Source: Micromonospora sp. NBC_01796
GTDB taxonomy: Bacteria; Actinomycetota; Actinomycetes; Mycobacteriales; Micromonosporaceae
Direction: 5' to 3'
Assembly: GCF_035917455.1 (NCBI RefSeq)
Contig: NZ_CP109078.1
Coordinates: 5,130,001-5,194,000, forward strand
DNA length: 64,000 nucleotides
Of the stretch, positions 18,492 to 47,598 are shown one piece after another. A model generated the notes under the pieces. That model searched no databases. It saw nothing but the letters and a program-made list of their open reading frames with translations, and was not told the origin of the DNA. Position 1 is the stretch's first letter; each line of letters opens with the position of its first letter. Made by a program: the position numbers and the translations under genes.

Positions 18492-19331
18492 ATGACGACA
18501 CCACTGCGAGTACTGATCTCGGCCGACATGGAGGGCGTCGCGGGAGTCGTGCACCCCACCGAGACCAACCCGGAACGGTACGACTACGAACGGGGCCGCC
18601 GACTGATGACGGCCGAGGTGAACGCCGTGATCGCGGGCGTGCTGGATGCCGTACCGGAGGCGGCGGTGCGGGTGGCGGACGCGCACGGGACGTTCCGCAA
18701 CATCCTGCCGGAGGAACTCGACCGCCGGGTCCGGCTGGTCCGGGGTCGGCCCCGCCCGCTCGGCATGCTCGGCGGGCTCGACGACAACACCGGGGCGGTG
18801 CTCTTTGTCGGTTACCACGCCCGTGCGGGTGCCGGCCCGGCGGTGTTGGCCCACACTATCAGCGACGCGGTCCTGGACCTGCGGATCAACGGCCAGTCGA
18901 TGGGGGAGATCGGCCTCAACACCGCCCTGGCCGGGCACCACGGTGCACCGGTGGTCCTGCTCGGCGGTGACGACGCCGCCTGCGCGGAGCTGAACGCCCT
19001 GGTCCCGGCGGCGGTGACGGTGCCGGTGAAGGTCGCCCTGGGTCAGGCGGCCGGCGAGACTCTCCATCCCGAGGAGGCCCGGGAGCGCCTGCGCGCCGCG
19101 GCCACAACGGCGATCGAGAACCGAGGGCAGGTCCCGCCCCTCACCCTGACCGGACCACTGGCCGTAGAGGTCGACCTGTACGCCCCGGCCACCGTCGACC
19201 TGGCGACCCTCATCCCCGGAGTGTCCCGCGCCCCCGGCGCCCGCACCGTAACCTTCACCGCCAACAACACGTCCGAAGCCCACTCCCTCATCCAACTCCT
19301 GACCCACCTGGCCCAAATCAAACCCGCCTGA
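18492..19331 (+). CDS. M55 family D-aminopeptidase (DppA-like)
   Basis: 279 residues from ATG 18492. The zinc-binding motifs of family M55 are present: RVLISADMEGVAGV (SxDxEG), VRVADAHGTFRN (DxHG), GMLGGLDDNTGAVLFVGYHARAGAG (GYHA). Such enzymes form ring-shaped decamers and release D-Ala or similar from D-peptides, possibly recycling peptidoglycan. The C-terminal coding sequence is markedly A/C-rich on this strand (about 46 of 60 bases in 19261-19320), the left half of a composition switch centred on the following palindrome. Confidence 0.88.
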   Translation: MTTPLRVLISADMEGVAGVVHPTETNPERYDYERGRRLMTAEVNAVIAGVLDAVPEAAVRVADAHGTFRNILPEELDRRVRLVRGRPRPLGMLGGLDDNTGAVLFVGYHARAGAGPAVLAHTISDAVLDLRINGQSMGEIGLNTALAGHHGAPVVLLGGDDAACAELNALVPAAVTVPVKVALGQAAGETLHPEEARERLRAAATTAIENRGQVPPLTLTGPLAVEVDLYAPATVDLATLIPGVSRAPGARTVTFTANNTSEAHSLIQLLTHLAQIKPA

Positions 19332-19344
19332 CCCCCGATCGCCT

Positions 19345-19407
19345 CGTTGATCATGAAGTTAGCGCGCCGGATCGGGCGTTTCGAGGTAGCTAACTTCATG
19401 ATCAACG
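19345..19407. repeat. Large palindrome with a perfect 19-bp stem, between convergent genes
   Basis: Arms 19345-19363 and 19389-19407 pair perfectly around a 25-base loop; the arms contain TGATCATGAAGTTAG. The left arm contains the stop codon of the EamA gene (19359-19361), so that protein's C-terminus is encoded by the element. It probably terminates transcription in both directions. Strand composition flips here from A/C-rich to G/T-rich. Confidence 0.9.
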
Positions 19408-20345
19408 CGATGGTCGGGGGTGGGGAGGGGGGTGGGGAGGCGGGCGGTTTCGGCTAGGGCTACGCCGGCTAGGACTACGAGGCCGCCGGTGATCTGGATG
19501 GGGGTGAGGGATTCGGTGGTGCCGAGGGTCAGCCAGGCGACGATCGAGGCGATCACGGGTTCGGCCATGCCGAGGATGCTGACGCTGGTCGCCGGCAGGT
19601 GGCGCAGGGCGCCGGAGACGAGCAGGAACGGCGCGATCGAGCCGAGCACCACCACGTACGCGCAGAGCAGCAGGACCGGTACGCCGCCGCTGCGCTCCCC
19701 GAGCGGCTCCCAACCCCCGCTGCCGGTGGTGACCGCCCTGGTCAACAGACCGGCCACGGCCGACGCGCCGAACGCCCAGGTGGTCAGGGAGAGGGTGTCC
19801 CGCTGCTGCACACCCCGCGCGCCGAGCACGTAGTAACAGGCGAGCACCACCGCCGCCATGAGCCCGGCGAGTACGCCGACCCCGTCCAGGTTCAGCGAGC
19901 CCCAGATCTCGGCCACACAGGCCAGCCCCGCCAGGCTCGCGGCCAGCCCGAACCAGAGCCGGGGGCGGGCCCGCTGGTGCTGGCCGAACCGGGCCCAGAG
20001 CGCGACCAGCAGCGGTGCGGTGTACTCGAACAGCAGCCCGATCCCGACCGGCAGGCGGGAGATCGCCACGAAGTAGAGCATCGGGGTGAGGAAGAACCCG
20101 GCCAGGCCGAACCCGATCAGCAGCGGCAGGTCGCGGAGGGTGACCCGCAGGCGGCGTACGCCCGGACGCAGCAGCACGCTCAACAGCAGCAGCCCGGCGA
20201 AGGCACCCGCCGCCCGGATCAGGGTGAGCTGCGGTGCCTCGATCCCGGCGCGCAGCACCAGCTTCGACACGGTGCCGTTGACCGCGAACAGCGCGCTGGC
20301 CGAGAGGACCATGATCACGCCGAGAGCCGGGTTACGAGTCGTCAC
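19359..20345 (-). CDS. EamA/DMT-family transporter (10-TMS drug/metabolite exporter type)
   Basis: 328 residues from the ATG at 20345. About ten hydrophobic segments form two EamA repeats: the first opens LGVIMVLSASALFAVNGTVSKLVL, the second includes VLACYYVLGARG and ends LTPIQITGGLVVLAGVALAE. The motif AEPVIASIVAWLTLG is typical of RhaT/EamA exporters. The substrate is unknown; neighbouring D-aminopeptidase does not define it. The final residues (HEVSYLETPDPAR) are encoded in the palindrome and are probably not conserved. Confidence 0.87.
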   Translation of the reverse strand: MTTRNPALGVIMVLSASALFAVNGTVSKLVLRAGIEAPQLTLIRAAGAFAGLLLLSVLLRPGVRRLRVTLRDLPLLIGFGLAGFFLTPMLYFVAISRLPVGIGLLFEYTAPLLVALWARFGQHQRARPRLWFGLAASLAGLACVAEIWGSLNLDGVGVLAGLMAAVVLACYYVLGARGVQQRDTLSLTTWAFGASAVAGLLTRAVTTGSGGWEPLGERSGGVPVLLLCAYVVVLGSIAPFLLVSGALRHLPATSVSILGMAEPVIASIVAWLTLGTTESLTPIQITGGLVVLAGVALAETARLPTPLPTPDHRVDHEVSYLETPDPAR

Positions 20346-20433
20346 CGGCTGAGATTACCGATGCGCCGTCAGGACTCAACCGTCAGCTGGCCGTTACTCC
20401 CACGGTTCGGATGGTCGATCACGCAACGGCTGA

Positions 20434-20649
20434 CACGGCAGGTCGGGCGGCAAACTCGCCGCAGCCGGCGGGGACCACCGGGTGGCGTTCGCCGGCTACG
20501 AGAACCGGATGGGCCCGCGCGTCACCGTCAACCGGAAGCGCCCGCCGGGCGGCACCAGCGGCTTCGCGCCGAGCACCCGACGGGGCATGATGATGGGCGG
20601 CATCCAGAAGGGTGCGAACGCGATCGCCCTCCGGGCGTACGGCGGCTGA
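20434..20649 (+). pseudogene. Remnant of a FAD-dependent monooxygenase C-terminus
   Basis: An open stretch of about 71 codons with no start, bounded upstream by a stop and ending in TGA 20647-20649. It reads KLAAAGGDHRVAFAGYENRM, then GPRVTVNRKR and MMMGGIQKGANAIALRAYGG. This resembles the last helix region of PHBH/UbiH-like FAD monooxygenases (…DHRxAxxxYExRMxPxVxxNQ…). The N-terminal two thirds are absent. It is probably a decayed gene; a chance open frame is possible in DNA of this composition. Confidence 0.45.
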
Positions 20650-20665
20650 CCATGTCGGGGATCGG

Positions 20666-21250
20666 ATGACCAGCTTTCCGGCCGAGGCGCGTCATGTCCG
20701 GGACACCGACCTGCCGGTGCACCACCGGCTCTGGGCGTTGCGCGGCTGCGCGCTGAGCTTCCCGCCGTACGGATTCCGCGCGACCTGGCACCATCTGGTC
20801 CGCTCCGCGCGCATTCCGTACCGGCTCGACGACGAACCGGATGCCCTGGTCCGGGCGGTGGACGAACTCGAAGCCGCCCGACAACTCGCGCTCGGGTACG
20901 CCGCTCCCGTGGTTGCCGCCCGCCGCCGGTCGAAGGCCGCCGGGCAGCGCGTCCCGGTGGTGTCGAGCCACTGGGTGTTCGGACAGTGGTCCTCGCTGGC
21001 CTACTGCCCGGACTTCGCCCACCACCCCGACGAACCGCTGCCGGTCGTGTTGGGCCGGGTCATCGCCGCCCACCGCGCCGGGACCGTCGATTCCGGACAG
21101 TGCACAGTCTGCGGTGCGGACCGCACCAGACCCCGGGCCTGTACCCGGTGCGGGGTCCACCCGGACGGTCCGGCCGCGCCCTCGGCCCGTTTCCGGCACC
21201 CGGACGAAGCCGACCGCTGGCGACGCACCTGGCAACGATCCGGGCCGTGA
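20666..21250 (+). CDS. Hypothetical protein with a CxxC...CxxC zinc-ribbon-like C-terminus
   Basis: 194 residues from ATG 20666. I do not recognise a family. The N-terminal part is rich in Trp/His/Arg (LPVHHRLWALRGCALSFPPY, ATWHHLV), a middle segment VPVVSSHWVFGQWSSLAYCPDFA follows, and the end has CTVCGADRTRPRACTRCG, two CxxC pairs 11 residues apart that could bind zinc. An earlier in-frame start at 20612 would add 18 residues. The gene follows the monooxygenase remnant and has no obvious partner. Confidence 0.6.
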   Translation: MTSFPAEARHVRDTDLPVHHRLWALRGCALSFPPYGFRATWHHLVRSARIPYRLDDEPDALVRAVDELEAARQLALGYAAPVVAARRRSKAAGQRVPVVSSHWVFGQWSSLAYCPDFAHHPDEPLPVVLGRVIAAHRAGTVDSGQCTVCGADRTRPRACTRCGVHPDGPAAPSARFRHPDEADRWRRTWQRSGP

Positions 21251-21301
21251 ACGGCACCGACCGGTCGTCGGCCCGGCCCAGCGCCAGCAGTGCCTCGGCC
21301 C

Positions 21302-21589
21302 CTACCCCAGCCGACGGGTGCGGTCCTTCGGCGGTTGGGGTAGGGGCGGTTCGGGGATGACGAACAGCATGCGGCGCTCGGCCATCCGTTTGCGGAGCCG
21401 GCGGACCATCCTCAGGAGCAGGCCGAACAGATCCCGGAGCGCTATCCCGACGACCAGGGCCAGCAGGGAGCCGATCACCTTGGCGTGCCAGCCGCCCTCG
21501 GCGAACTGGGCCGGAAGTTCGGTCGCGGCGACGAACCCCGCAAACAGCCGCCAGCCCATCTTCGGCTCGTCCCTGTTCGCCACGCACAC
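21302..21589 (-). CDS. Small membrane protein of unknown function
   Basis: About 95 residues from a proposed GTG 21589; the start is uncertain and the frame stays open to 21847. A single or double membrane stretch is visible (WHAKVIGSLLALVVGIALRDLFGLLL), followed by a strongly basic segment RMVRRLRKRMAERR and a Pro-rich end. No family is recognised. Upstream, 21590-22260 shows no supportable gene, only high-GC open frames on both strands. Confidence 0.4.
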   Translation of the reverse strand: MCVANRDEPKMGWRLFAGFVAATELPAQFAEGGWHAKVIGSLLALVVGIALRDLFGLLLRMVRRLRKRMAERRMLFVIPEPPLPQPPKDRTRRLG

Positions 21590-22272
21590 ATCCTGGCACC
21601 TGTGTGCCACCAGATTCGTCCCCCGAAAAGGAGCGCCTCCCGGTGCATCGCCGGTGAGCTGATCGGTCGGGGAGCGGTGGGCGGCCTCAGCGTCCGAGGG
21701 CTGGGTGACGGCGGCCTCGACGTGCGGCCGGGTGGTAGGGAAGACGGGTACGGGATGCGCCGCGTGGGCCGGCCGTGGCATCGACGGCGGGCCCACGCGT
21801 ACGGCGTCGTCCCTGGTGGGGGCGGCGCCGGGGCGCCCCGTACACACCGCCCGGGCCGGCGGTGCCGGTGGTTCACCGGGACGGGTCGGATGATCGGGTT
21901 ACCTGCTTCGGCACCTGTTGATCAACGCTGTGCAGGCTAGCCAGCCTGTCCCCATGAACGGGGGAAGCGCAGATGAAGCCCGTACGACCGGGTCGTGAAA
22001 CAAGCCCGCCCCGGTGCGCGGCGGGCGGGCGTGGCCGATCCGGGCCCGCCTCCCGTTCCCGGTGGCACGACTCCGGGAAGTGTCGGCCCCGGTCGATGTC
22101 CCCGCCGGTGCCGGTGACGGGTGGCGTCCGTGGTGTCGGGCCTGGTTTCCCCGGCTCCGGGCCGGTTCCGGGCCTGGTCCGCATCGGTACGGGCGGCGGG
22201 TTCCGGTCGGTCGGGACCGGTGTCTCGGTGGTTGCGTTTTTGTCGGGGGCGAGGTGTACTGTCATCAGTAGT

Positions 22273-22288
22273 TAGAACGCGTGTTCGA
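22273..22288. promoter_or_regulatory. LexA (SOS) box upstream of the HEPN gene and imuA
   Basis: TAGAAC-GCGT-GTTCGA matches the actinobacterial SOS consensus TCGAAC-N4-GTTCGA at 11 of 12 defined bases. A weaker half-site (TCGAAC at 22320) follows. It lies 345 bases before the HEPN start, so either the leader is long or the true gene start is further upstream. The interval 22289-22632 holds no other gene that I can support. Confidence 0.75.
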
Positions 22289-22632
22289 TTGAGTCGTCGG
22301 CTTGGGTCGCTGGCTTGAGTCGAACGCTCGTCCTGACCACCGGGAGCAGCGTTCGCGGCGTAGTTCCCGGCGTGCGGTTCCGCGGACCGCGCGGGCTCCG
22401 GGCACACCAGTCCGGGCCACCAAGGCAGGATCACCGTTCGCCGCCCACGACCCCCGGGCGGCGGGCGGTGACCCCGCCGGGTCAGCCGGCCGGGTGCGGT
22501 GTGGGGAAGCACCCACATCCGGCCGGCACCACCGGTGCGTCTTCCTCCGCAGCGGGCTATTCGACAGTGCGTGGCCATCCGGGCTCCCCGCCCGACCGGT
22601 GGCGACACGGCGGCGACGCGGAGGAGAGTCCC

Positions 22633-23082
22633 ATGCCGACCAGCCCGGTTCAGGTGCCGACGGTGCCGGCGCACATACTGCCGCACCGGACTCCGGCCCA
22701 GCTGCTCATGATTGCCCGGCGCGGGCTGGCGGAAGCCGCCCAGACCCGACCCGACGGCCTGCGGTACGCGGCGGCGCACCTGGCCGCCCTGCGCGCCGCC
22801 GCGGCGATGCTCGCCGCCCGTGCCCGTCCCGCACCCACCCGCCGCAACCGGGTCACCAGCGTCTGGGCCCTGCTCGTGCTCGTCGCACCGGAGCTGGGGG
22901 AGTGGGCCACCTACTTCGCCACCGGCGCGACCAAGCGGGCCGCCGCCGAGGCCGGCATCCCGCGGGTGGTGACCGCCCGGGAGGCCGACGACCTGCTCCG
23001 CTCGGCCGAGCAGTTCGTGGCCGTGGTCGAGGCCGCGCTCGGCCTGTCCCACCAACCCGCCATCGACGGACTCGCCGCCTGA
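22633..23082 (+). CDS. SAV_6107-type HEPN domain protein
   Basis: 149 residues from ATG 22633, with a GAGGAGAG ribosome site. An all-helical small protein: TPAQLLMIARRGLAEAAQ, LRYAAAHLAALRAAAAMLAAR, NRVTSVWALLVLVAPELGEWATYFA, and TAREADDLLRSAEQFVAVVEAALG. I recognise it as the SAV_6107-like HEPN family, which in actinomycetes commonly precedes mutasome genes. HEPN proteins are often RNases or act on nucleotides; an R-x4-H arrangement (RYAAAH) is present but in the N-terminal helix, so activity is uncertain. It is probably SOS-induced with imuA. Confidence 0.78.
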   Translation: MPTSPVQVPTVPAHILPHRTPAQLLMIARRGLAEAAQTRPDGLRYAAAHLAALRAAAAMLAARARPAPTRRNRVTSVWALLVLVAPELGEWATYFATGATKRAAAEAGIPRVVTAREADDLLRSAEQFVAVVEAALGLSHQPAIDGLAA

Positions 23083-23084
23083 GC

Positions 23085-23154
23085 GGCAACCGGACCCGCA
23101 CGGACCGACCGGCGGTAGTGGCGACCGGACTCGTACGGACCGACCGGCGGTAGC
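23085..23154. repeat. Two 35-bp tandem direct repeats between the HEPN gene and imuA
   Basis: Units 23085-23119 and 23120-23154 are adjacent and differ at four positions. They occupy most of the 109-base gap. Function unknown. Confidence 0.85.
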
Positions 23155-23191
23155 AGCGGCACAGACACTTCAACGGGGATGGGTGAGTTCC

Positions 23192-23944
23192 ATGGCGGGC
23201 CGGATGACGGTCGGGTCGGCTGCGCTGGCGGACCTGGTCCGGCCGGCGAGCGCCCCGGACGCCGCCGGTGCCTACCGGACGCTGCCGGTGCTGCCCGAGC
23301 TGATCGGCCTGCTGCCCAACCGGGGACTGCGCCGGGGCAGCACGGTGGCGGTCGGCACCGGCCAACCGGCCCGCAGCGGCGGCACCTCACTCCTGCTGGC
23401 GTTGCTCGCCGAGGCATCCCGCGCCGGTTCGTGGTGCGCGGTGGTCGGCGTACCGACCCTCGGCATGGTCGCGGCGGCCGAACTCGGCATCGCGCTGGAC
23501 CGGCTCGCCCTCGTACCGCACCCCGGCCCGGAGTGGGCCACCGTGGTCGCCGCCCTGATCGACGGGGTCGACGTGGTGGTCATCGCCGTACCGGGCACGG
23601 TCAGCGCCACGGTCACCGACCGACTGGCCGCCCGAGCCCGGCAGCGCGGCAGCGTGCTCCTCCCGTACGGGCAGTGGGCCGGTGCCGACGTCACCCTCCG
23701 GGTGGTCGCGGGGGCGTGGGAGGGGCTCGGCCAGGGGCGGGGTCGGCTGCGCCGGCGCGAGGTGACCGTCTCCGCCCGGGGGCGGGGTGCCGCCGCCCGT
23801 CCCAAGGAGATCAAGGTCTGGATGCCCGGCGACGACGCCACCCGTGTGGTTAAGCCGGTCGGTGGCACCCGGACGGCCGGATCGTCCGCGACCTGGCCGG
23901 AGCCGGTGTCCCGGCGTACCCCGCTCACCCTGGTCGGGCCGTGA
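23192..23944 (+). CDS. ImuA-like protein (RecA-fold mutasome accessory)
   Basis: About 250 residues from ATG 23192 (GTG 23183 is also possible). A degenerate RecA/SulA-like fold: LLPNRGLRRGSTVAVGTGQP, SLLLALLAEASRAGSWCAVVGVPTLGMVAAAELGIALDRLALVPHPGPEWATVVAAL and DVVVIAVPGTVSA, where strand order resembles RecA but the Walker A is not canonical. A basic Arg-rich segment GRLRRREVTVSARGRG precedes the C-terminus. In actinobacteria ImuA' works with ImuB and DnaE2 in damage-induced mutagenesis, probably as an adaptor. The next gene follows after an intergenic SOS box. Confidence 0.82.
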   Translation: MAGRMTVGSAALADLVRPASAPDAAGAYRTLPVLPELIGLLPNRGLRRGSTVAVGTGQPARSGGTSLLLALLAEASRAGSWCAVVGVPTLGMVAAAELGIALDRLALVPHPGPEWATVVAALIDGVDVVVIAVPGTVSATVTDRLAARARQRGSVLLPYGQWAGADVTLRVVAGAWEGLGQGRGRLRRREVTVSARGRGAAARPKEIKVWMPGDDATRVVKPVGGTRTAGSSATWPEPVSRRTPLTLVGP

Positions 23945-24003
23945 GGCGCCCGACCGTGCGCGTCCCGGGACGGGGCAGCGCGGGCAGCCCCGCCAAACTA
24001 GAA

Positions 24004-24019
24004 TCGAACACATGTTCTA
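24004..24019. promoter_or_regulatory. LexA (SOS) box upstream of imuB-dnaE2
   Basis: TCGAAC-ACAT-GTTCTA matches TCGAAC-N4-GTTCGA at 11 of 12 defined bases and lies about 35-50 bases before the imuB start, between imuA and imuB. imuB-dnaE2 thus probably has its own damage-inducible promoter. Confidence 0.85.
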
Positions 24020-24052
24020 AGGTGGCTCGACGGGCTGGTCGAGAGGGGCGTG

Positions 24053-25651
24053 ATGGGGGGCGGGACGGGGGAGGCCGGGCGGCCGGCACCGGTGCGCACC
24101 CTGCTCGTCTGGTGCCCGGACTGGCCGGTCATCGCGGCCGAGATCGTCGACGGGGTGCCGGCGTCGGCCCCGGTCGCCGTGTTGCACGCCAACCGGGTCC
24201 TTGCCTGCTCCACCGCCGCCCGTGCCGAAGGGGTGCGCCGTGGGCTGCGTAAACGGGAGGCACAGAGCCGCTGCCCGCAACTGATCGCGGTCGACCACGA
24301 TCCCGGTCGGGACGCCCGCGCCTTCGAGTCGGTGGTCGCCGCGATCGAGGAAGTGGCCGCCGGGGTCGAGGTGATCCGGCCGGGTGTCTGCGCGCTCGCC
24401 GCTCGCGGCCCCGCCCGCTACTTCGGTGGCGAGGAACAGGCCGCCGAGCGGATCGTCGAGCACGTCGCCCAGACCTGCCTGGTGGAGAGCCAGATCGGCA
24501 TCGCCGACGGGCTGTTCGCCGCCGGCCTGGCCGCCCGCACCGGGCAGATCGTCCCGCCCGGCGGCGCTCCGGAGTTCCTGGCCGACCTGCCGGTGGAGGC
24601 ACTCGGCCGACCGTCCCTGACCGACCTGCTGCGTCGGCTCGGGCTGCGTACCCTGGCCGATTTCGCGGCCTTGCCCGCAGGCGACGTGCTGGCCCGGTTC
24701 GGGTTCGACGCCGCGCTCGCCCACCAACTCGCGGCCGGCCGCGACCACCGCCGGCTCGCGGTCCGCCGCCCGCCGCCCGACCTGGCCGTGACCGAGACGT
24801 ACGACGAAGCGCTGGACCGGGTCGACGCCGCCGCGTTCGCCGCCCGTGCCCTCGCCGAACGGCTGCACGAGACCCTCGCCGGACACGCCCTGGCCTGCAC
24901 CCGGCTCGGCATCGAGGCGGTCACCGAGCACGGCCAGGAACTGCACCGGGTCTGGCGGCACGACGGGCTGCTCACCTCGGCCGCGATCGCCGACCGGGTG
25001 CGCTGGCAGCTCGACGGCTGGCTCTCCGGGACCAACCGGCGTCCCGGTGCCGCCGGGCGGGTCGCACCGTCCCGGCCGACCTCGGGGATCATCCGGCTCC
25101 GGCTGATCCCCGACGGGCTGCTGGCCCAGGCCGGCCTCCAGCCGGGACTGTGGGGCGAGACCGGCGTCGAGCGGGACCGGGCACACCGGGCGCTGAGCCG
25201 GGTGCAGGGCATCCTCGGCCCCGAGTCGGTGCTCACCGCCGTGCTCGGCGGTGGGCGGTCCGACGCCGACCGGGCCCGGCTGGTGCCGTGGGGCGACGAA
25301 CGGACCCCGGGCCGACCGGCGGAGCCGCCCTGGCCGGGGCGGTTGCCGCCGCCGGCACCGGCGGTGGTGCTGGCCGCGCCGCTGCCGGCCGCGGTCTACG
25401 ACGACGCGGGTGAACCGGTCACGGTGACCGCCAGGTTGCAGGTCAGCGCCGCCCCGGTCCGGTTGGTGGTGGGCGCCGCCGCGCCGGTCGAGATCGTCGG
25501 CTGGGCCGGGCCCTGGCCGCTGGACGAGCGTTGGTGGGCGCCGGCCGAGTCCCGGCGCCGGGCCCGCTTCCAGGTCCGGCTCGCCGACGGGGGTGCGCTG
25601 CTGCTCTCCCTCGCCGGTGGCCAGTGGGCGGTGGAGGCGATTTATGACTGA
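24053..25651 (+). CDS. imuB: ImuB, catalytically inactive Y-family polymerase homologue
   Basis: 532 residues from ATG 24053 (GTG 24050 directly before it is an alternative). The Y-family fold begins RTLLVWCPDWPVIAAEIV, the ImuB form in which the catalytic acidic residues of the palm are replaced, followed by PVAVLHANRVLACSTAARAEGVRRG. A helix-hairpin-helix region LRRLGLRTLADFAALPAGDVLARFG and a little-finger-like domain follow, then a variable C-terminus. ImuB recruits DnaE2 and the beta clamp for translesion synthesis. It lies directly upstream of dnaE2 and behind an SOS box. Confidence 0.88.
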   Translation: MGGGTGEAGRPAPVRTLLVWCPDWPVIAAEIVDGVPASAPVAVLHANRVLACSTAARAEGVRRGLRKREAQSRCPQLIAVDHDPGRDARAFESVVAAIEEVAAGVEVIRPGVCALAARGPARYFGGEEQAAERIVEHVAQTCLVESQIGIADGLFAAGLAARTGQIVPPGGAPEFLADLPVEALGRPSLTDLLRRLGLRTLADFAALPAGDVLARFGFDAALAHQLAAGRDHRRLAVRRPPPDLAVTETYDEALDRVDAAAFAARALAERLHETLAGHALACTRLGIEAVTEHGQELHRVWRHDGLLTSAAIADRVRWQLDGWLSGTNRRPGAAGRVAPSRPTSGIIRLRLIPDGLLAQAGLQPGLWGETGVERDRAHRALSRVQGILGPESVLTAVLGGGRSDADRARLVPWGDERTPGRPAEPPWPGRLPPPAPAVVLAAPLPAAVYDDAGEPVTVTARLQVSAAPVRLVVGAAAPVEIVGWAGPWPLDERWWAPAESRRRARFQVRLADGGALLLSLAGGQWAVEAIYD

Positions 25652-25684
25652 CCACACCGCCGAGTGGGAAGCGGGTGCTCGCCG

Positions 25685-30014: not shown

Positions 30015-31252
30015 CCGGTCCCTCGGCCCGGCCCGACCCCGCCGCCCGGCCCGGTGCGGTGACGCTGCCGTTCGGTGCCCACGGTCCGTTCGACCAGGTA
30101 CGACCGGAGTACGGCGGGGACAGTCTCGCCGACCTGCTGCCCAGCGTGCTGGCGGTGCTCGGGGTGCCGGGGGCCACCGATCCGCTGGGGCTGACCGCCC
30201 AACTCGCCGGCGTACGCCGGATCGCGGTCCTGCTGGTCGACGGACTCGGCTGGTACCAGTTGCCGACCGCGGCCCCGTACGCGCCGGTGCTGACCGACCT
30301 GGTGGCCCGGACCGGTCGGCCGCTCACCAGCGGGTTCCCGTCGACCACCCCGACGAGCCTGGTCAGTCTCGGCACCGGGGCGGCGCCGGGGGCGCACGGG
30401 GTGCTCGGTTTCCGGGTCAACGTGCCGGGCACCGACCGGGTGCTCACCCACATCAACTGGTCCGGTACGGCCGACGACCCCCGTGCCCCGGACCCGGATC
30501 CCCGTACCTGGCAGCCGTTGCCGACCCAGTTCGAACTGGCGGAGGCGGCCGGGGTGGCGGTGACCGTGGTGAGCCGTCCCGAGCATGCCGGCAGCGGCCT
30601 GACGGTGGCGGCCAACTCCGGTGGTGTCTACCGGGGTGCCGCCGAGGTGGACACGCTGGCCACCGAGATGCTGGCCGCGCTGACCGCCGGTCCCGGTCCC
30701 ACCCTGGTCTCCGGTTACCACCCGGACATCGACAAGCACGGGCACCTGTCCGGGGTCGACTCGACGGCCTGGCGGGAGGCGGTGGCCGACCTGGACCGGC
30801 TGCTCGACCGGTTGGTCCACGGGCTGCCGGCCGATGCCGCGCTGCTGGTCACGGCCGACCACGGGCAGCTCAACGTCCCGCCGGACCGGCGCTTCGACCT
30901 CGATCTCGATCCTCGGCTGCGGGCCGGCGTACGGGTGGCGGCGGGTGAGCCGCGGGTCCGTTACCTGCACGCCCTGCCGGGGGCGGTGGACGACGTGCTG
31001 GCCGCCTGGACCGAGGTGCTGGGGCCGGCGGCGTGGGTGGCGCCGAGGGCGGAGGCGGTCGCCGCCGGCTGGTTCGGCCCGGTGCCGGAGGCACACCTGG
31101 CCCGGATCGGCGACGTGGTCGTCTGCTGCCGCGACTCGTACGCGGTCCTGGCCACCCGCACCGACGCCCCGATCGAGGCGAACCTCGTCGCGTACCACGG
31201 CTCCTGGACCGCCGCCGAGATGACCATCCCCCTCCTCCTCGCCCGCCCCTGA
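30011..31252 (+). CDS. Nucleotide pyrophosphatase/phosphodiesterase (alkaline phosphatase superfamily)
   Basis: 413 residues, start overlapping the methyltransferase stop. The metal sites of the type I phosphodiesterase family are visible: RIAVLLVDGLGWYQLP (first Asp), SGFPSTTPTSLVSLGTG (nucleophile Thr in the STTPTS block), GYHPDIDKHGHLSG (Asp and His ligands), LLVTADHGQLN (Asp-His). Such enzymes hydrolyse phosphodiester or pyrophosphate bonds in nucleotides or lipids. No signal peptide is seen, so it is probably cytosolic. The 3' end is A/C-rich before the palindrome. Confidence 0.88.
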   Translation: MTGPSARPDPAARPGAVTLPFGAHGPFDQVRPEYGGDSLADLLPSVLAVLGVPGATDPLGLTAQLAGVRRIAVLLVDGLGWYQLPTAAPYAPVLTDLVARTGRPLTSGFPSTTPTSLVSLGTGAAPGAHGVLGFRVNVPGTDRVLTHINWSGTADDPRAPDPDPRTWQPLPTQFELAEAAGVAVTVVSRPEHAGSGLTVAANSGGVYRGAAEVDTLATEMLAALTAGPGPTLVSGYHPDIDKHGHLSGVDSTAWREAVADLDRLLDRLVHGLPADAALLVTADHGQLNVPPDRRFDLDLDPRLRAGVRVAAGEPRVRYLHALPGAVDDVLAAWTEVLGPAAWVAPRAEAVAAGWFGPVPEAHLARIGDVVVCCRDSYAVLATRTDAPIEANLVAYHGSWTAAEMTIPLLLARP

Positions 31253-31270
31253 CCCCATGGTCAGCGCCTA

Positions 31271-31322
31271 ATACAGAGAAAGAGGGGCTATCCGGCGCGG
31301 AATAGCCCCTCTTTCTCTGTAT
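31271..31322. repeat. Palindrome of the ATACAGAGAAAGAG family, copy 1
   Basis: Perfect 21-bp stem, arms 31271-31291 and 31302-31322, 10-base loop (CCGGCGCGGA). A related copy lies at 35394-35455, with two stem positions changed in both arms so that pairing is kept. It follows the phosphodiesterase gene stop by 18 bases and precedes the aldehyde oxidoreductase operon, so it may be a terminator. Strand composition flips here. Confidence 0.92.
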
Positions 31323-31433
31323 CAGCGCGCCCCCCCGGAGGGGGAGGGCAGGTGGGGAAACGGGTGTTCGGGTTCCTGGATTGGGCTAGTTTCAGGTAAT
31401 TCGTGCATCCGTTGGTGGGGCGAGGGGCGGGCA

Positions 31434-31940
31434 GTGGATACCGAAGTGACGTTGCGGGTGGACGGGACCGTCTACACGCTGGGGGTGGACACCCGGACCA
31501 CGCTCCTGGACGCGCTGCGGGAGCGACTCGGCATCACCAGCCCGAAGAAGGGCTGTGACCACGGGCAGTGCGGAGCCTGCACGGTCCTGCTCGACGGGTG
31601 GCGGTCCAACAGTTGCCTCGCCCTCGCCGTCGCCCACGACGGGGCGGAGATCACCACCGCCGCCGGGCTGGCCGTGGACGGCACCCTGCACCCGATGCAG
31701 GAGGCGTTCGTCGAGTGCGACGCCTTCCAGTGCGGCTACTGCACCCCCGGCCAGATCGTCTCCGCGGTGGGCATGCTGGACGAGGTCGACTCCGGGTGGC
31801 CGAGCGCGGTGACCGCCGCCGGTGACGTCGAGGTGGTGCTCGACGAGGCGGAGATCCGGGAACGGATGAGCGGCAACATCTGCCGCTGCGCGGCGTACGC
31901 CAACATCGTCCCCGCCATCGCCCGGGTGGCCCGCCGATGA
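31434..31940 (+). CDS. Aldehyde/xanthine oxidoreductase, [2Fe-2S] subunit (PaoA-like)
   Basis: 168 residues from GTG 31434. Plant-type [2Fe-2S] site KKGCDHGQCGACTVLL with a later Cys in SNSCLALAV, and C-terminal helical cluster FQCGYCTPGQIVSAVGML and MSGNICRCAAYANIVPAI. Both clusters are complete. It would pass electrons from the Mo site to FAD. Unlike E. coli PaoA there is no Tat signal peptide, so the complex is probably cytoplasmic. Overlaps the FAD subunit by ATGA. Confidence 0.93.
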   Translation: MDTEVTLRVDGTVYTLGVDTRTTLLDALRERLGITSPKKGCDHGQCGACTVLLDGWRSNSCLALAVAHDGAEITTAAGLAVDGTLHPMQEAFVECDAFQCGYCTPGQIVSAVGMLDEVDSGWPSAVTAAGDVEVVLDEAEIRERMSGNICRCAAYANIVPAIARVARR

Positions 31941-35098: not shown

Positions 35099-35232
35099 GG
35101 TTGGGGGCGGCGTGCCCCGCGAAGGCCGTCAGGCTTGATCCCTTCGCGGGGCACGCCGCCCCCAACCTCTTTCGGCTTGCTCCGGTCGGGGTGGCGGCGG
35201 GTGCGTCGCCGCACAATCGGTTTCGGGTACGG
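35099..35232. repeat. Large hairpin repeat, copy 2 of 2 (stem 35099-35125 / 35141-35167)
   Basis: A perfect 27-bp stem with a 15-base loop (CCGTCAGGCTTGATC), 8 bases after the stop of the molybdenum subunit. Copy 1 is at 5791-5859; similarity continues about 60 bases past the hairpin in both. The rest of 35168-35393 holds no gene I can support. Confidence 0.9.
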
Positions 35233-35393
35233 CGAATGCGGGTGGCCGGAGGTTTGCGATGCCGCCGGGCGTGGGAAGGTCGACTCGGGCCGGCGGTATC
35301 GCCGAGGCCGGAGCGGCGCTCGGTGCCTGTTCGACACGAACGTCATGAGCGCGAGCAAGCACCCCACCCCACCCACCCCCGCGCTGCACGGGG

Positions 35394-35455
35394 CGCTAAT
35401 ACAGAGAAAGAGTGGTTATCCGGCGTGGAATAACCACTCTTTCTCTGTATTAGCG
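35394..35455. repeat. Palindrome of the ATACAGAGAAAGAG family, copy 2
   Basis: A perfect 26-bp stem, arms 35394-35419 and 35430-35455, 10-base loop (CCGGCGTGGA). It is a longer version of 31271-31322, with two compensated base-pair changes. It lies just downstream of the aldo/keto reductase stop (35486) on the other strand and after copy 2 of the 27-bp hairpin, so it may terminate both transcripts. Confidence 0.92.
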
Positions 35456-35485
35456 CGGGTCAGCGCGGTCACGCGGTGGAGTGGG

Positions 35486-36481
35486 TCAGGCGGTGGTCTG
35501 GTTCAGGCGGGTTAGGTGGTCCGGGGTTAGTTTGAGGTCTAGGGCGGGGAGGGCGGCTTCGTAGTGGGGGAGGGTTCTGGGGCCGATCAGGGGGACGAGG
35601 GTGGGGTTGTCCTGGTGTAGGAGCCAGGCCAGGACCAGTTGGTTCGGGGTGACGTCGAGTTCGGCGGCGATGGCGTCGAGTACGGCGAGCCGGGCGGTCG
35701 AGTCGGCACCCCGGTACGGGTCGAGTACGGGGTGTTCGCGGCGCTTGGTGGCGTCGTCGTAGCTGCCCTTGAGGATCGGCGAGTACGCGACCAGGGTGAG
35801 GTCGTCGTGCGCCCGCAGGTAGTCGAGCTGCTCGTCGTCGACGATCGCGGAGTGGTCCACGCCGGGGCGGCGGCGCAGGTAGGAGTGCTGCTGCTGAAGG
35901 GCGACCGGGGCCGGCCAGCCGTACCGGTCGCAGAGCTGGCGGATGCTCTCCAGCCGCCAGGTGTGCACGTTGGACCACCCGAGGTAGCGGACCTTGCCGG
36001 CGGTGACGAGGCCGGCGAGCGACTCCAGGGTCTCCTCCAGCGGGGTGGAGTGGTCGTCGACGTGCACGTAGTAGAGGTCGACGTGGTCGGTGCCGAGCCG
36101 GCGCAGGCTGTCGTCGAGTTCGCGGCGTACGGTGTCGGCGCCGGCACCGGAGTAGCCGTGGGGGGCCCGTACTCGGCCGTCGAGTACGGCGGCCGGGTCG
36201 GCCACCCAGGCGGTGCCCTTGGTGGCGAGGAACACCTGGTCGCGGCGCCCGGAACGGGCGAACCAGCGGCCCAGGAGGGACTCGCTCTCGCCGCCCCGGA
36301 ACGGTGGTCCGGGCCACCAGGCGTAACAGTTGGCGGTGTCGAGGAAGGTGCCGCCGGCGTCGAGGTAGCGGTCGAGCATCGCGTACGACGACTCCTCGTC
36401 GGTCATCGTGCCCATCAGCATGCAGCCGAGAGCGAGCTGGCTGACCTGCTCGCCGGTGCGGCCCAGAGCGACGGTTTGCAT
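35486..36481 (-). CDS. Aldo/keto reductase
   Basis: 331 residues from ATG 36481, with a ribosome site GGAG 7 bases upstream. AKR features: the start QTVALGRTGEQVSQLALGCM, the DTANCYAWW segment with catalytic Asp and Tyr, VFLATKGTAW (catalytic Lys), and DDSLRRLGTDHVDLYYVHVDD (active-site His). It uses NADPH to reduce aldehydes or ketones of unknown identity. The upstream promoter is of the MerR-controlled type. The gene's last 300 bases are strongly C/A-rich on the coding strand, next to the palindrome. Confidence 0.92.
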   Translation of the reverse strand: MQTVALGRTGEQVSQLALGCMLMGTMTDEESSYAMLDRYLDAGGTFLDTANCYAWWPGPPFRGGESESLLGRWFARSGRRDQVFLATKGTAWVADPAAVLDGRVRAPHGYSGAGADTVRRELDDSLRRLGTDHVDLYYVHVDDHSTPLEETLESLAGLVTAGKVRYLGWSNVHTWRLESIRQLCDRYGWPAPVALQQQHSYLRRRPGVDHSAIVDDEQLDYLRAHDDLTLVAYSPILKGSYDDATKRREHPVLDPYRGADSTARLAVLDAIAAELDVTPNQLVLAWLLHQDNPTLVPLIGPRTLPHYEAALPALDLKLTPDHLTRLNQTTA

Positions 36482-37862: not shown

Positions 37863-37977
37863 GTCGTCCCGCTTTCCGAGCGCCGACCCCCCTCGTAGAC
37901 TTGCGCTAAGCAGCCGGTTGGCTGCCACGGTCTGTCGGTCCGACCGGACCGACTCAACGTGACCGGGGAGGAGTGCC

Positions 37978-38361
37978 GTGCCGCTCTCGGAGCACGAGCA
38001 GCGGCTGTTCGAGCAGATCGAACAGTCGCTTGCCGAGGACCCCAAATTCGCCTCGGCTGTGCGTGCCAGCGACCCGCGTTTCCACGCGCGACGTCGCCTG
38101 CTCGTCGCCGCTGGCGTGATCATCGCTGGCCTTGCACTGGTCGTTTACGGCACGGTGGACAAGACTCCGCTCATCGGAGTGGCTGGCTTCGTGGTCATGC
38201 TGGGCGCGGCCGCGTTTGCGATGCAGTCCCATCGCAAGGCGCAAACGCCCGATCTGCGCGTGGTTGGCGGTTCGACCAGCCGGCGTACGCGTGGTCGGCG
38301 GATGTCATTGCTCGACCGTCTCGAGGACCGGTGGCGGCAACGGCCGGAAGGCCATCGCTGA
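37978..38361 (+). CDS. DUF3040 membrane protein
   Basis: 127 residues from GTG 37978, preceded by GGGGAGGAG. The family signature is MPLSEHEQRLFEQIEQSLAEDPKFA followed by two membrane segments (LLVAAGVIIAGLALVVYGT, LIGVAGFVVMLGAAAFAM) and a basic C-terminus. Homologues lie close to mraZ in many actinobacteria; here the moxR, leuS and murT-gatD blocks intervene. Function is unknown. Confidence 0.9.
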   Translation: MPLSEHEQRLFEQIEQSLAEDPKFASAVRASDPRFHARRRLLVAAGVIIAGLALVVYGTVDKTPLIGVAGFVVMLGAAAFAMQSHRKAQTPDLRVVGGSTSRRTRGRRMSLLDRLEDRWRQRPEGHR

Positions 38362-38570
38362 CACCGGATGGTTCCGCCTTCGCGGGTTCGCCCGCGAGGC
38401 GGTCAACCGGACACCCTCGACGGTATCCGGTTGATGCTTTTTGTTCGTGTTGCGGGTGTTTCGTCCGTTAAGTCGTTATTTAGTACGGCTTCGCCGGCTG
38501 CGGCGAGGCAACCCCGGTAAACCCGCATCGCCCGCTACCGCCCAGCGGGTCCGGTGCCCCGGTCGTGGAA

Positions 38571-38615
38571 AACCCGTGGTGCCCGGAACCAGTCCGGTTC
38601 CGGGCACCACGGGTT
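38571..38615. terminator. Perfect 20-bp hairpin between convergent genes
   Basis: Arms 38571-38590 and 38596-38615, 5-base loop; one more A-T pair can be added. It lies between the DUF3040 gene and the transglutaminase gene, which converge here, and ends 18 bases from the latter's stop. Both strands have A or T runs next to the stem, as expected for a bidirectional terminator. Confidence 0.85.
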
Positions 38616-38633
38616 TCTGCTGTCTACCGTTTC

Positions 38634-41096: not shown

Positions 41097-42393
41097 CGCA
41101 TCCCTCCGGCAACCGTCTCGGCCATCGCGGCCCGCCAGGCGAAGCCCTGCGATCCGCGCGCCGCCTGCGGCCACAGCGCGGGCAGCCGGCTGCCGTGCTC
41201 GACCGCGATCACCCGCCACCCGCTCTGCATCAGGCCCAGTACGGCGGCGCCGTGGGCGTTGTCGGCCTCGGTCCGCGCCGGTGCCGGCAGGGTGAGCCAG
41301 GTGGTGCTGTCCACCAGGAACGCGAGGCAGGTCGCGCCGTTGCCCCGCAGCCCGGCCAGGACCTCGGCCTCGGCGGTGCTCAGCGTGCCCAGGATCGCGA
41401 TGATCAGCCCACCGTCGGACCGTTGCCGGACCCGTTCGACCAGGGTCGCCACGTCACCGCGCTGGGACAGCCGGACGTCGGCGAGGTGGTCCAGCAGCAG
41501 ACCCTCGCCGCCGCCCTCGTTCGCGTCGGCGTCCATCCCGGAACCGGTGACCAGCCGCAGCTTGTAACCGGACTGGCGCAGGTGCACGGCGACGCTGGCG
41601 GCGGCCGAGACCGCCCACTCGAAGCTGGCGGTCGGCCCCTCGCCCCGATGCGCCGACGCCCTGGTGTCCAGCACCACGGTCGCCCGGCTCTCCCAGGGCT
41701 GCTCCTCCCGCCGCACCATCAGCTCGCCGGTACGGGCGGTCGACTTCCAGTGCACCCGGCGCAGATCGTCGCCGCGCCGGTACTCCCGGGTCGCCGCGTC
41801 GTCCTCGCCGTGCACCGCCACCGACCGGGCCCGGCTGTCGCCGGTGCCGGCGTACTCACCGGCCAACCGGACCTGGGGCAGGGCGGTGACCTGGGGGATG
41901 ACGGTGAGCCGGTCGACGCTGGGGAACGCCCGGGTCAGCTCGCACAGCCCGAACGGGTCGGTCAGCCGGACCACCAGCGGACCGACCTCGTACCGGCCGC
42001 GCACGTCGGCGCGGACCGTGTACGCCACCGAGCTGGCCTGGTGCGCGCCGAGCCGCTCCAGCACCACCCGGGGCCGGCTGCCCAACGCGTACGGCAGCCG
42101 GTCCTCCAGCAGCAGGGTCCCGGTCGGCAGCCGGGACATGTTCTGCAGGCGCAGCACCACGCGGGAACTGGCACCGATCGGCACCCGCTGCGGTTCCAGC
42201 GACCGGCTGCAGGCCAGCTTGTACCGGCTGCGGCCGACGTACGCGGCGGCCAGCAGCGGCAACACGCCGAGCAGCACGGCCACCCGGAGCAGGTCCTGTT
42301 CGCCCAGGATCGCCGCGGAGATGGCCGCCGCCACCGCCGCGGCGAGGAAGGACCGGCCGCGGGTGGTGAGCCCGCGCAGTGCCTCGCGCACGG

Positions 42394-42397
<4 letters not shown>
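41093..42397 (-). CDS. DUF58 domain protein
   Basis: 434 residues from GTG 42397, overlapping moxR by GTGA. Two membrane segments at the N-terminus (FLAAAVAAAISAAILG, LLRVAVLLGVLPLLAAAYVG), a beta-rich central region, then the DUF58 signature EYRRGDDLRRVHWKSTARTGELMVRREEQ and a von Willebrand-like fold (TVVLDTRASAHRGEG). DUF58 proteins act with MoxR ATPases, probably in assembly of envelope complexes. Confidence 0.9.
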
Positions 42398-43458
<1,061 letters not shown>

Positions 43459-43692
43459 GGGCCTCCTCCTCGTCGCAGCACGGCTTCTCTGTCCAGACCT
43501 GCTGGGCCGGCCGTAAGGTTCGCGGGAAAATACGGTCGCGGGGCGCGCCCGGATCACCCGCATGGAATCAGGCTAGCCGGAACTCACGCCCAAGCCGACC
43601 ACACGTGCGGTCCCGGTGGCCGGTCGGCCCGTACCGGCGACCCGTGGAACCAGGCGCGACAGCCCGACGGGTGGAGGCGTAGACTGCGGGGC

Positions 43693-43731
43693 ATGGCCCG
43701 GGCCTACCTGCTTCTTAGTGAGCCGTGCTGA
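43693..43731 (+). CDS. leuS leader peptide MARAYLLLSEPC
   Basis: A 12-codon open frame with three consecutive Leu codons (CTG CTT CTT, 43708-43716), two of them rare in this GC-rich genome. A GCGGGG sequence precedes the ATG. It is followed by a 10-bp hairpin and a poly-T terminator, then leuS. This is the arrangement of ribosome-mediated attenuation: low charged tRNA-Leu would stall the ribosome at the Leu codons. Confidence 0.75.
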   Translation: MARAYLLLSEPC

Positions 43732-43782
43732 CGCCACTGAGCGCGACAGCACGGCTACCCCTCCTGTGTGAGGGGCTTTTTT
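43721..43782 (+). promoter_or_regulatory. Attenuator: pause hairpin and intrinsic terminator before leuS
   Basis: First hairpin: arms 43721-43730 and 43747-43756 (perfect 10 bp). Terminator: CCCCTC (43758-43763) and GAGGGG (43770-43775) with CTGTGT loop, then six T's (43777-43782). Poly-T terminators are uncommon in such DNA. The antiterminator pairing was not worked out. No T-box consensus was seen. Confidence 0.72.
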
Positions 43783-43857
43783 ATGCCCGGAAAAGCATGC
43801 CCTGAAATGCGAAACGTGCCCGTGTACGCACAACGGTGAGCGCGGCGAGGAGAAGAC

Positions 43858-46707
<2,850 letters not shown>

Positions 46708-46710
46708 CCC

Positions 46711-46780
46711 CACCCCGCCCCTACCCCCCACCCCCACCCCCACCCCCACCCCCTACCCCCTACCCCGCCCCCGTCGACCT
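46711..46780. repeat. CCCCA/CCCCTA low-complexity tract
   Basis: About 70 bases of C with scattered A/T (repeats of CCCCCA and CCCCTA) directly after leuS. On the minus strand this is G-rich and could form quadruplex-like structures. It leads into the palindrome at 46782. Confidence 0.9.
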
Positions 46781-46781
46781 G

Positions 46782-46862
46782 CCCGTCGATCTTGCAGTTG
46801 TGGTGCCCGTATCACGCCGTTTCGGGCGGTACGGGCACCACCACAACTGCAAGATCGACGGG
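46782..46862. repeat. Large palindrome (GATCTTGCAGTTGTGG family)
   Basis: Arms 46782-46811 and 46830-46862 form a 30-bp stem with a three-base bulge (extra CCA in the right arm) and an 18-base loop. It lies between the convergent leuS and TVP38-like genes. Composition changes from A/C-rich on the left to G/T-rich on the right (13 of 60 G/T in 46681-46740, 43 of 60 in 46921-46980). Confidence 0.9.
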
Positions 46863-46905
46863 GAGTGGGGCGGGGACGGGGGACGGCGGGCAGGGGGTGG
46901 GGGTG

Positions 46906-47598
46906 TTACGGGGTGGGGGTGGTGGTGTGGCGGTGGGCTCGTTCTGCTCGGCGCCAGCGGGTGATGAGGATGGCGGCGGCGATCAGGCCGAAGCTGGCGG
47001 GTGCCACCGCGAGCCAGTTGAACTCGTCCGGGTCGGCCACGGCGGCGCCGATCGCGGCGTAGCCGAAGGCGGACGGGATCGTGGCGAGGACGCTGCCGAT
47101 CAGGAACGGGACCACCCGGGCGCCGGTGGTGCCGTAGCCGTAGCTGACCAGCCCGAACCCGCCGACCGGCAACAACCGTACGGTGATCACCCCGAGCACG
47201 CTCTGCCGGCTGAACCAGCCGTCCAGGCGGGCCAGGCGGCCCCGTACCCGTTCGGCGACGAAGTCGCGGCCGAGCAACCGACCGACGGTGAAGCCGAGCG
47301 CGGCGGCGACCAGCGCGGCGGCCAGGGTGTAGCCGGCGCCGCCGAGCGGGCCGAACAGCGCTCCCCAGGCCACCGTGATCAGGGTCCGGGGGACCAGGGC
47401 CACCATCAGCAGGGCCCCACCGAGGACCGCGGCCACCGGGGCGGCCGGACCGAGCCGGTCGACCATCCGGGGCGCCGCCGCCAGATCGGGCTGTACGAGC
47501 AGCAGCGCCAGGCCGAAGAGCCCGAGGATGAGCAGCAGCGACCCGAACCGCACGACCGACCGCTGCCGCAGCAGCCGCCGGAGGTGCGGGACGATCAC
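46906..47598 (-). CDS. TVP38/TMEM64 (VTT domain) membrane protein
   Basis: 230 residues from GTG 47598, overlapping gatD by GTGA. Six or so membrane segments; the VTT core is VPRTLITVAWGALFGPLGGAGYTL with ALGFTVGRLLGRD and VITVRLLPVGGFGLVSYGYG. DedA/VTT proteins are membrane transporters or lipid scramblases; undecaprenyl-phosphate recycling by the related DedA group would suit its place after murT-gatD, but that is inference. C-terminus is basic and Thr/Pro-rich, next to the palindrome. Confidence 0.85.
   Translation of the reverse strand: MIVPHLRRLLRQRSVVRFGSLLLILGLFGLALLLVQPDLAAAPRMVDRLGPAAPVAAVLGGALLMVALVPRTLITVAWGALFGPLGGAGYTLAAALVAAALGFTVGRLLGRDFVAERVRGRLARLDGWFSRQSVLGVITVRLLPVGGFGLVSYGYGTTGARVVPFLIGSVLATIPSAFGYAAIGAAVADPDEFNWLAVAPASFGLIAAAILITRWRRAERAHRHTTTPTP

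Follow-up and report, generated by a model that had tools for sequence, protein, structure and literature searches.

The window analyzed here, 64,000 nucleotides (bases 5130001–5194000) of the 8.56-Mb single-contig genome of the soil bacterium Micromonospora sp. NBC_01796 (Micromonosporaceae), contains four palindromes at which the composition of the plus strand switches from A/C-rich to G/T-rich. They are copies of dispersed repeats that form four families, designated A to D, and three of these families are represented among them. Sequence comparison showed that the families are REPIN-like and that, in one or more of three congeneric genomes, each of them is linked to a gene for a predicted protein combining an AbiEi part with a Vsr/homing-endonuclease-like part. 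A first-pass annotation, made from the letters of the window, had described the flip in composition but had recognized neither the repeat families to which the palindromes belong nor their cognate nucleases. The overall account proposed below comprises the families, their cognates, and a nuclease-triggered, strand-asymmetric repair or conversion that would cause the skew. We assign it a probability of roughly 0.55; the identity of the elements and cognates is its firm part and the cause of the skew its weak part. The four palindromes are as follows:

19345–19407, no strand assigned: family A element with CGTTGATCATGAAGTTAGC arms and a core-start spacing of 43 bp, between convergent genes.
31271–31322, no strand assigned: family D element, a ATACAGAGAAAGAG variant, between tandem plus-strand genes and thus not convergent.
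35393–35456, no strand assigned: family D element with CTAATACAGAGAAAGAGTGG arms and a spacing of 31 bp; the minus-strand aldo/keto reductase gene ends about 30 bp away.
46782–46862, no strand assigned: family B element with CCCGTCGATCTTGCAGTTGTGG arms and a spacing of 53 bp, between convergent genes.

The families were characterized in a sample of the NBC_01796 genome that consisted of 100 evenly spaced 20-kb stretches plus the window (2.06 Mb). A simple, home-made gene caller predicted 1794 genes in this sample (85% coding; start sites are approximate), and a palindrome finder with a minimum arm length of 14 bp detected 354 palindromes, compared to 46 in base-shuffled sequence. The sample contains 53 paired elements (20 of family A, 17 of B, 6 of C, and 10 of D), in each of which a pair of conserved inverted arms, about 22 bp long, encloses a spacer that varies freely in sequence but hardly in length. 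The arms start with CGTT/CGTC-GATC in families A–C and with CTC-TGTAGAG in family D, and their cores are TTGATCATGAAGTTAG (A), GATCTTGCASTTGTGG (B), GATCTAGGGCAWATG (C), and AGAGAAAGAGTGG (D), the consensus arm strings being 22–26 bp long. Arm-start spacings are 42–43 bp in A, 52–54 bp in B, 41 bp in C, and 31 bp in D, and thus differ between families by about one helical turn. An argument for recognition of DNA and not RNA, based on the two arms varying independently, was rejected: at the variable arm position of family B, 28 of the 46 listed pairs have matching variants on the left and right (expected 23.4; not significant), and the arms of D (10 elements) and C (6 elements) co-vary at other positions, which suggests that pairing may matter too. 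The 51 elements not located at the edge of a stretch lie mainly between convergent (23) or tandem genes (26), and some overlap the last codons of a gene. Only two are in divergent regions, where 15.8 would be expected by length; inclusion of loci from 20 extra stretches picked for holding A elements gave 6 of 73. In the window, the called stop codon of the minus-strand EamA gene (19359) lies inside the palindrome at 19345–19407, so that this element would encode the C-terminus of the protein. Elements are scarce at approximately 5.4–7.7 Mb, around the inferred replication terminus, and common around the inferred origin (both placed by the GC skew of the sampled stretches). At G000:C1:4044187-4044386, two B elements are 128 bp apart. 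Rfam searches of the window gave no match at gathering scores.

A gene located between two A elements matches AbiEi and REase-type Pfam models, and its only homolog among the sampled genes sits between two B elements. A profile search (alignment A1) of NBC_01796 and two congeners, G002 (approximately 91% identical) and G001 (approximately 88%), yielded 16 matches. Each of the eight best, with E-values of at most 1.4e-37, lies between elements of its own palindrome family: A in NBC_01796, G002, and G001 (there with degenerate arms), B in NBC_01796 and G002, C in G001 and G002, and D in G002. They represent four paralogous groups rather than eight independent cases, since cognates of the same family partly occupy the same locus across species. 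None of the eight weaker matches, two of which were not exactly placed in their locus, has A–D elements on both sides, and one has a D element on one side. Among the 1766 sampled NBC_01796 genes of at least 300 bp, 139 have an element within 450 bp and three are flanked on both sides by the same family, namely the two nuclease genes and a gene for a beta-helix protein (L008:2574-4166) between D elements.

The MTES_1575 REase model matched all eight cognates and NCBIfam gave a weak match for one of them; the one structure model made has AbiEi and Vsr/I-Bth0305I folds. The acidic and histidine positions D224, E235, D237, and H242 are invariant in all eight proteins, for which site-specific cleavage is predicted. 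A homolog of the A cognate was not found in a plasmid collection, and the one annotated neighbor of a cognate (at L063) is a GARS enzyme. The NBC_01796 locus L058:6128-7351, which corresponds to the site of the C cognate between two C elements in G001 and G002, has no cognate, no C element, and no skew. It holds another gene (6326–7225), for which the family search gave no identification.

The composition step was defined as the G+T fraction of the 100 bp to the right of a palindrome minus that of the 100 bp to its left, on the plus strand. G+T rises from 0.26 to 0.70 at 19345–19407 (step 0.44), from 0.39 to 0.65 at 31271–31322 (0.26), from 0.42 to 0.74 at 35393–35456 (0.32), and from 0.21 to 0.78 at 46782–46862 (0.57). 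Steps of these sizes are reached at 26, 175, 107, and 2, respectively, of 40,000 random sample positions, counts that are conservative because the sampled stretches hold other elements. The flip noted in the first-pass annotation is therefore real and far beyond chance. It is not a property of palindromes in general, since three other window palindromes, with arms of 21–29 bp and 97–100% match, lack it: 5789–5861 (−0.13), 35099–35167 (−0.04), and 38570–38616 (+0.01). The palindromes at 5789–5861, 35099–35167, and L102:1546 are copies of one further GC-rich repeat (GGGGTTGGGGGCGGCGTGCCCCGC...), also palindromic, in which the loop is similar and a step is lacking; its left flank in the window is G/T-rich.

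Across the sample, the step averaged 0.369 at the family elements (n = 51) and 0.041 at intergenic palindromes outside the families (n = 213). Strong amino-to-keto flips outnumber opposite ones by 49 to 6; 38 of the 49 coincide with elements of families A–D, and two more resemble D relatives by eye. The first-pass annotation had proposed to compare palindromes genome-wide with palindrome-free convergent gene ends, and in the sample such ends proved to be skewed only slightly (G+T of 0.454 over the final 30 coding bases and 0.48–0.50 beyond 60 bases), so that the outcome it had named as a refutation did not occur. Given the slight skew of palindrome-free ends and the near-absence of a step at other palindromes, a general property of gene ends was rejected as the cause. 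Palindrome strength was discarded as driver, as arm length, loop, folding energy, and arm GC showed no significant correlation with the step among the 213 non-family palindromes; likewise replication polarity, as the side toward the inferred origin and that toward the inferred terminus are alike. A flanking motif of the translocation type was also rejected, the enriched words being mainly simple GGTGGGG-like tracts and reverse-complement stop codons. The strong step is tied to families A–D and not to palindromes or gene ends generally. For comparison, REP (repetitive extragenic palindromic) sequences of E. coli were sought with a consensus in 200 kb; the four clusters found had a mean step of 0.025 ± 0.038, an underpowered result, and a longer pattern found no cluster. 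Distant nuclease homologs occur near other palindromes at L200:2559-2619 (GATCGTCAG...; step 0.30) and L199:986-1066 (CCATGATCATTGCTC...; 0.24), and the palindrome at L005:980 (0.09) resembles that of L200; possibly these are further families.

Read outward from the elements, G+T is 0.69–0.76 at 5–60 bp and decreases to 0.50 by 250–300 bp, the excess being mostly G in place of C; the skew reaches approximately 200 bp per side. It is alike in all three gene orientations. In tandem settings both sides agree bin by bin, the flank toward the downstream gene being as skewed as that at the end of the upstream gene. The further claim of the first-pass annotation, that the skew enters coding sequence on both sides and alters codon choice, also held, both in the window flanks and in sample-wide shifts at synonymous sites. 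In genes whose 3′ end faces an element, C and G at fourfold sites change from 0.46 and 0.45 to 0.80 and 0.08, respectively, and the share of A in twofold purine codons increases from 13 to 56%. Within 60 bp of an element, TAA accounts for 29 of 76 stop codons, compared to 56 of 930 controls. Synonymous sites of genes starting near an element shift in the mirror-image manner relative to start-codon controls. RNA that enters an element strongly avoids G and mildly avoids U. The flanks of the window elements, whose 200-bp extents were taken from the sample-wide average profile, are as follows:

19145–19344, plus strand: A/C-rich left flank of the 19345 element, taking in the 3′ end of the M55 peptidase gene.
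19408–19607, plus strand: G/T-rich right flank of the 19345 element, taking in the 3′ part of the EamA gene (minus strand).
31071–31270, plus strand: A/C-rich left flank of the 31271 element, at the end of a phosphodiesterase-family gene.
31323–31522, plus strand: G/T-rich right flank of the 31271 element, extending to the start of the next plus-strand gene (31434).
35351–35392, plus strand: A/C-rich left flank of the 35393 element, short here, with the other palindrome at 35099–35167.
35457–35656, plus strand: G/T-rich right flank of the 35393 element, reaching into the aldo/keto reductase gene.
46582–46781, plus strand: A/C-rich left flank of the 46782 element, taking in the 3′ end of the leucyl-tRNA synthetase gene.
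46863–47062, plus strand: G/T-rich right flank of the 46782 element, reaching into the VTT-domain gene (minus strand).

Substitution rates near elements were estimated between NBC_01796 and G002 from fourfold sites within 160 bp (1017 sites, 35 elements), with stationarity assumed. On the outward strand, C>G and C>T were raised to 2.87 (2.34–3.45) and 3.55 (2.51–4.88) times the background, and the reverse changes were lowered: G>C to 0.56 (0.45–0.71), T>C to 0.56 (0.40–0.76), and G>A to 0.40 (0.25–0.56). Exchanges between G and T were raised in both directions (G>T 2.87, T>G 2.31), and smaller counts polarized with G001 agree with these rates. Because the reverse rates are lowered, the pattern indicates a fixation bias, by selection or biased conversion, and not only more mutation; the increase in G–T exchange suggests additional mutation too. 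Differences from G002 at codon positions 1 and 2 have a frequency of 0.102 near elements and 0.069 at control gene ends (0–80 bp). At fourfold sites far from elements, C–G transversions between these genomes outnumber C–T changes three- to fourfold, at first glance an unusual ratio and probably due to GC bias.

In the 22 elements shared with G002, the arms are identical at 673 of 692 positions (97.3%) and spacers of equal length at 225 of 388 (58%), with spacer length unchanged in 20 elements and differing by one base in two. In alignments of ordinary intergenic DNA, 9.8% of positions differ (46 regions that passed a 60% identity filter), and the spacers of A elements diverge far faster than the surrounding DNA while keeping their length. 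In seven of the 22 spacer pairs the inverted score exceeds the direct one by more than 2, and two of these lie above the 99th percentile of 480 unrelated control comparisons (9.2): L063:4343 (11 inverted, −2 direct) and L085:5921 (11 and −6). That of L158:4963 (9 and 3) falls just below it. Small inversions of hairpin loops have reportedly been seen in plastid genomes. The A elements concerned, at least two of which have spacers inverted relative to G002, are:

L063:4344-4402, A element with inverted spacer.
L085:5922-5980, A element with inverted spacer.
L158:4964-5022, A element with a probably inverted spacer, the borderline case.

Family A palindromes were also found in 25 stretches from named Micromonospora genomes and Micromonosporaceae bacterium KJ-029; in 23 of these (two lie too near an end to be measured) the mean step was 0.42. 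The exact paired A pattern occurs in 3 of 121 sampled genomes of Micromonosporaceae, with 37 copies in NBC_01796, 20 in G002, and one in another genus, the latter with a step of 0.39 and no cognate homolog in the 10 kb retrieved there. Seven regions were mapped to both G001 and G002, and these ortholog comparisons rest mostly on regions chosen for elements. The arm search used for them and for the element counts in G001 and G002 worked with a best-match flag and may undercount. Among 41 mapped element-to-genome comparisons, ten targets lack any arm, and in all ten the step is smaller; mean steps measured in flanks 60–160 bp away were 0.254 with and 0.025 without the element (seven distinct gene ends, nine of the ten targets being in G001). 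The same gene end may hold different families, or a different hairpin, in different species. At the G001 sites orthologous to the B elements at L083:3820 and L076:8872, a GGGCCCCTTGTTA hairpin is present and the step is small or absent. No B- or D-flanked cognate turned up in G001, and neither B nor D elements were detected in 246 kb of it; 250 kb of G002, which has cognates of all four families, contained five B and three D elements, most regions of both sets having been chosen for elements and the search being prone to undercounting. Random 90-kb samples of each genome held one element in all (D, in G002), so that densities outside the chosen regions are poorly constrained.

A mechanism that could connect these observations starts with the attachment of two protein monomers to the two inverted arms (about 22 bp each), in the way that paired 23-bp inverted repeats are bound by AbiEi. 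The cognate might then nick or cut at the arms or process the hairpin once extruded, and repair proceeding outward for approximately 200 bp on both sides would leave a strand-asymmetric footprint. As reverse changes are suppressed and forward changes raised, this footprint would most likely reflect biased conversion of heteroduplexes, or mutation combined with such a bias. In the heteroduplex route that we propose, the broken copy would always contribute the strand ending at the break; C:C and G:G (or A:A and T:T) mismatches would then come from opposite directions of change and be repaired unequally. The location at gene 3′ ends could be explained by tolerance of insertions there and by the capacity of the hairpin to replace a terminator. 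In its specific form, in which the elements are bacterial recombination hotspots where domesticated AbiEi-Vsr nucleases cut their own palindromes and strand-asymmetric biased gene conversion rewrites about 200 bp per side, codons included, the proposal is tentative, and we regard it as possible rather than probable.

Several observations weigh against the nuclease-based account. Binding, nicking, and cutting are what we infer, and the nuclease activity rests on fold and synteny. Of the 51 non-edge elements, 49 lie in convergent or tandem settings, that is, at 3′ ends, which is also terminator-like, and the fixation bias would be expected equally from selection. Among the 74 measured NBC_01796 elements (A-chosen loci included), three that are intact nevertheless have steps of 0.15 or less (L018 B, −0.01; L013 A, 0.09; L061 A, 0.15). 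None of the five matches in NBC_01796 is flanked by C or D elements, yet the C and D elements of this genome are skewed (0.35 and 0.34), so that slow decay of the skew or another enzyme is needed. G001 keeps the A cognate, yet its four sampled A elements have one to five arm mismatches and weak steps of 0.14–0.26. No transposition or cleavage event was observed, although families differ between species at the same gene end, and the gene calls rest on a home-made caller.

The main rival is selection for two-sided termination or insulation of transcription, in which the palindrome, as hairpin or protein-bound roadblock, would be reached from either side by A/C-rich, G- and U-poor, unfoldable RNA forming a Rho-loading zone of approximately 100–200 nt, with codons selected on both strands. 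The first-pass annotation had considered such a Rho-plus-hairpin terminator, and several observations fit it: the position at gene 3′ ends with depletion from divergent regions, an incoming RNA that is A/C-rich and G-poor over at least 70 nt on both strands, and a substitution pattern of the fixation-bias type (outward C>G and C>T up; G>C, T>C, and G>A down). According to the accessible part of the source, Rut sites are unstructured, C-rich, G-poor, and 70–80 nt long (PMC12207403). The different GGGCCCCTTGTTA-type hairpin that G001 carries at two sites of NBC_01796 B elements also fits. However, the 213 other intergenic hairpins are almost stepless, and the equally skewed downstream side in tandem settings would require antisense termination to be selected as hard as sense termination. 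The shifted synonymous sites at nearby gene starts are not expected of a terminator of sense transcripts, both divergent elements of the sample are skewed too, and neither the cognate nucleases nor the restriction to nuclease-linked families is predicted. Two-sided termination thus appears doubtful to us, if still a serious competitor. A strand-asymmetric process centered on the palindrome (break, resection, or restart), the other reading offered by the first-pass annotation, is favored because the skew is blind to gene orientation and specific to families that have cognate nuclease genes. Simple added mutation, which is one form of it, is insufficient: since G>C, T>C, and G>A are rarer than background, conversion or selection must contribute.

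Pure strand-asymmetric mutation, for example by error-prone synthesis primed at the palindrome and running outward, would account for the symmetric, gene-blind skew, for the raised C>T, C>G, and G↔T exchanges, and for the higher divergence of codon positions 1 and 2 near elements. Leading strands are enriched in keto bases, and the sign of the skew fits a leading-strand-like, outward-synthesized strand. Mutation could not, however, push G>C, T>C, and G>A below background unless the other strand were protected, and we consider this explanation unlikely. A preference of the elements for insertion into pre-existing A/C-to-G/T junctions would be in line with the mild C-richness of transcription-unit ends in general. 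It is already contradicted by the smaller or absent step at orthologous sites without an element, by the empty and unskewed C-cognate locus of NBC_01796, and by directional substitutions that go on in both lineages, and is thus very improbable. The idea that the flanks are outer parts of a longer imperfect palindrome was suggested by long imperfect arms around the 46782 element and can practically be dismissed, as in-register flank identity was 0.357 within and 0.352 between unrelated elements (74 elements), indicating similarity of composition only.

If the nuclease-based account is correct, Micromonosporaceae, a family known for antibiotic production, would possess a parallel to REPIN-RAYT systems that uses an unrelated nuclease. 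Each element would be a readable 400-bp record of enzyme action on DNA, a local process would prove strong enough to prevail over codon preference and stop-codon choice, and over some of the protein sequence, in its vicinity, and the origin of an otherwise obscure terminator-like repeat family would be explained. Should the elements be recombination hotspots, they would provide a bacterial equivalent of biased conversion driven by hotspots, and a parallel to REPIN-RAYT that involves no transposase. Should termination be the cause, they would represent a repeat-linked, two-sided termination signal written into coding sequence. The papers listed by searches of the open PubMed Central (PMC) literature included no description of these palindromes, their flank skew, or an AbiEi-Vsr cognate.

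Among known systems, bidirectional and Rho-dependent terminators share with the elements their location, the hairpin, and the C-rich, G-poor incoming RNA, but not the limitation of the skew to nuclease-linked families or its blindness to gene orientation. Type IV (AbiE) toxin-antitoxin systems have the AbiEi-fold protein in common with the cognates. In the text available for AbiEi antitoxin operators, two 23-bp inverted repeats with a gap of 3 or 13 bp are bound by AbiEi-fold proteins (PMC7319586), which resembles the elements in arm length (here 22–26 bp) and in spacings that differ by about one helical turn. In contrast to these operators, the elements are dispersed in tens of copies and their protein has a nuclease-like domain. 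With Vsr-type (I-Bth0305I) homing endonucleases the cognates share, as judged from the structure model, the fold of the predicted catalytic domain; they differ in the AbiEi-like DNA-binding part, in the many target-like copies in the genome, and in that no intron or intein was seen. GTAG- and CGTC-tagged REPs are likewise palindromic, mostly downstream of genes, and often dimers, and the CGTC type apparently lacks a dedicated transposase (Di Nocera, 2013; PMC3733652, as far as its text was available). CGTC REPs have stems of 8–9 bp and are found mostly in Alphaproteobacteria, whereas the elements described here have arms of about 22 bp and occur in Micromonosporaceae; the terms “Actinobacteria,” “Micromonospora,” and “skew” had no match in the available text of that paper.

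The closest likeness is to REPIN-RAYT systems, which, in the portion of the source at hand, have paired inverted conserved arms around a length-constrained spacer of variable sequence, are extragenic, and occur as several families in one genome, each family lying next to its cognate gene (Bertels and Rainey, 2011; PMC3116915). The elements are organized in the same way and also lie mostly downstream of genes, with the C and D cognates found only in relatives of NBC_01796. They lack the unpaired GTAG/CGTC tag at the hairpin foot and the short stem of REPs, and a flank skew is not described in the text of PMC3116915 that was available (“GC skew,” no matches; “composition,” two). The cognate of REPINs is a Y1 (HUH) tyrosine transposase (PMC3116915, same portion), whereas that of the elements is predicted to be an AbiEi-fold, Vsr/homing-endonuclease-like protein. 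The system thus would work like REPIN-RAYT, with an unrelated nuclease.

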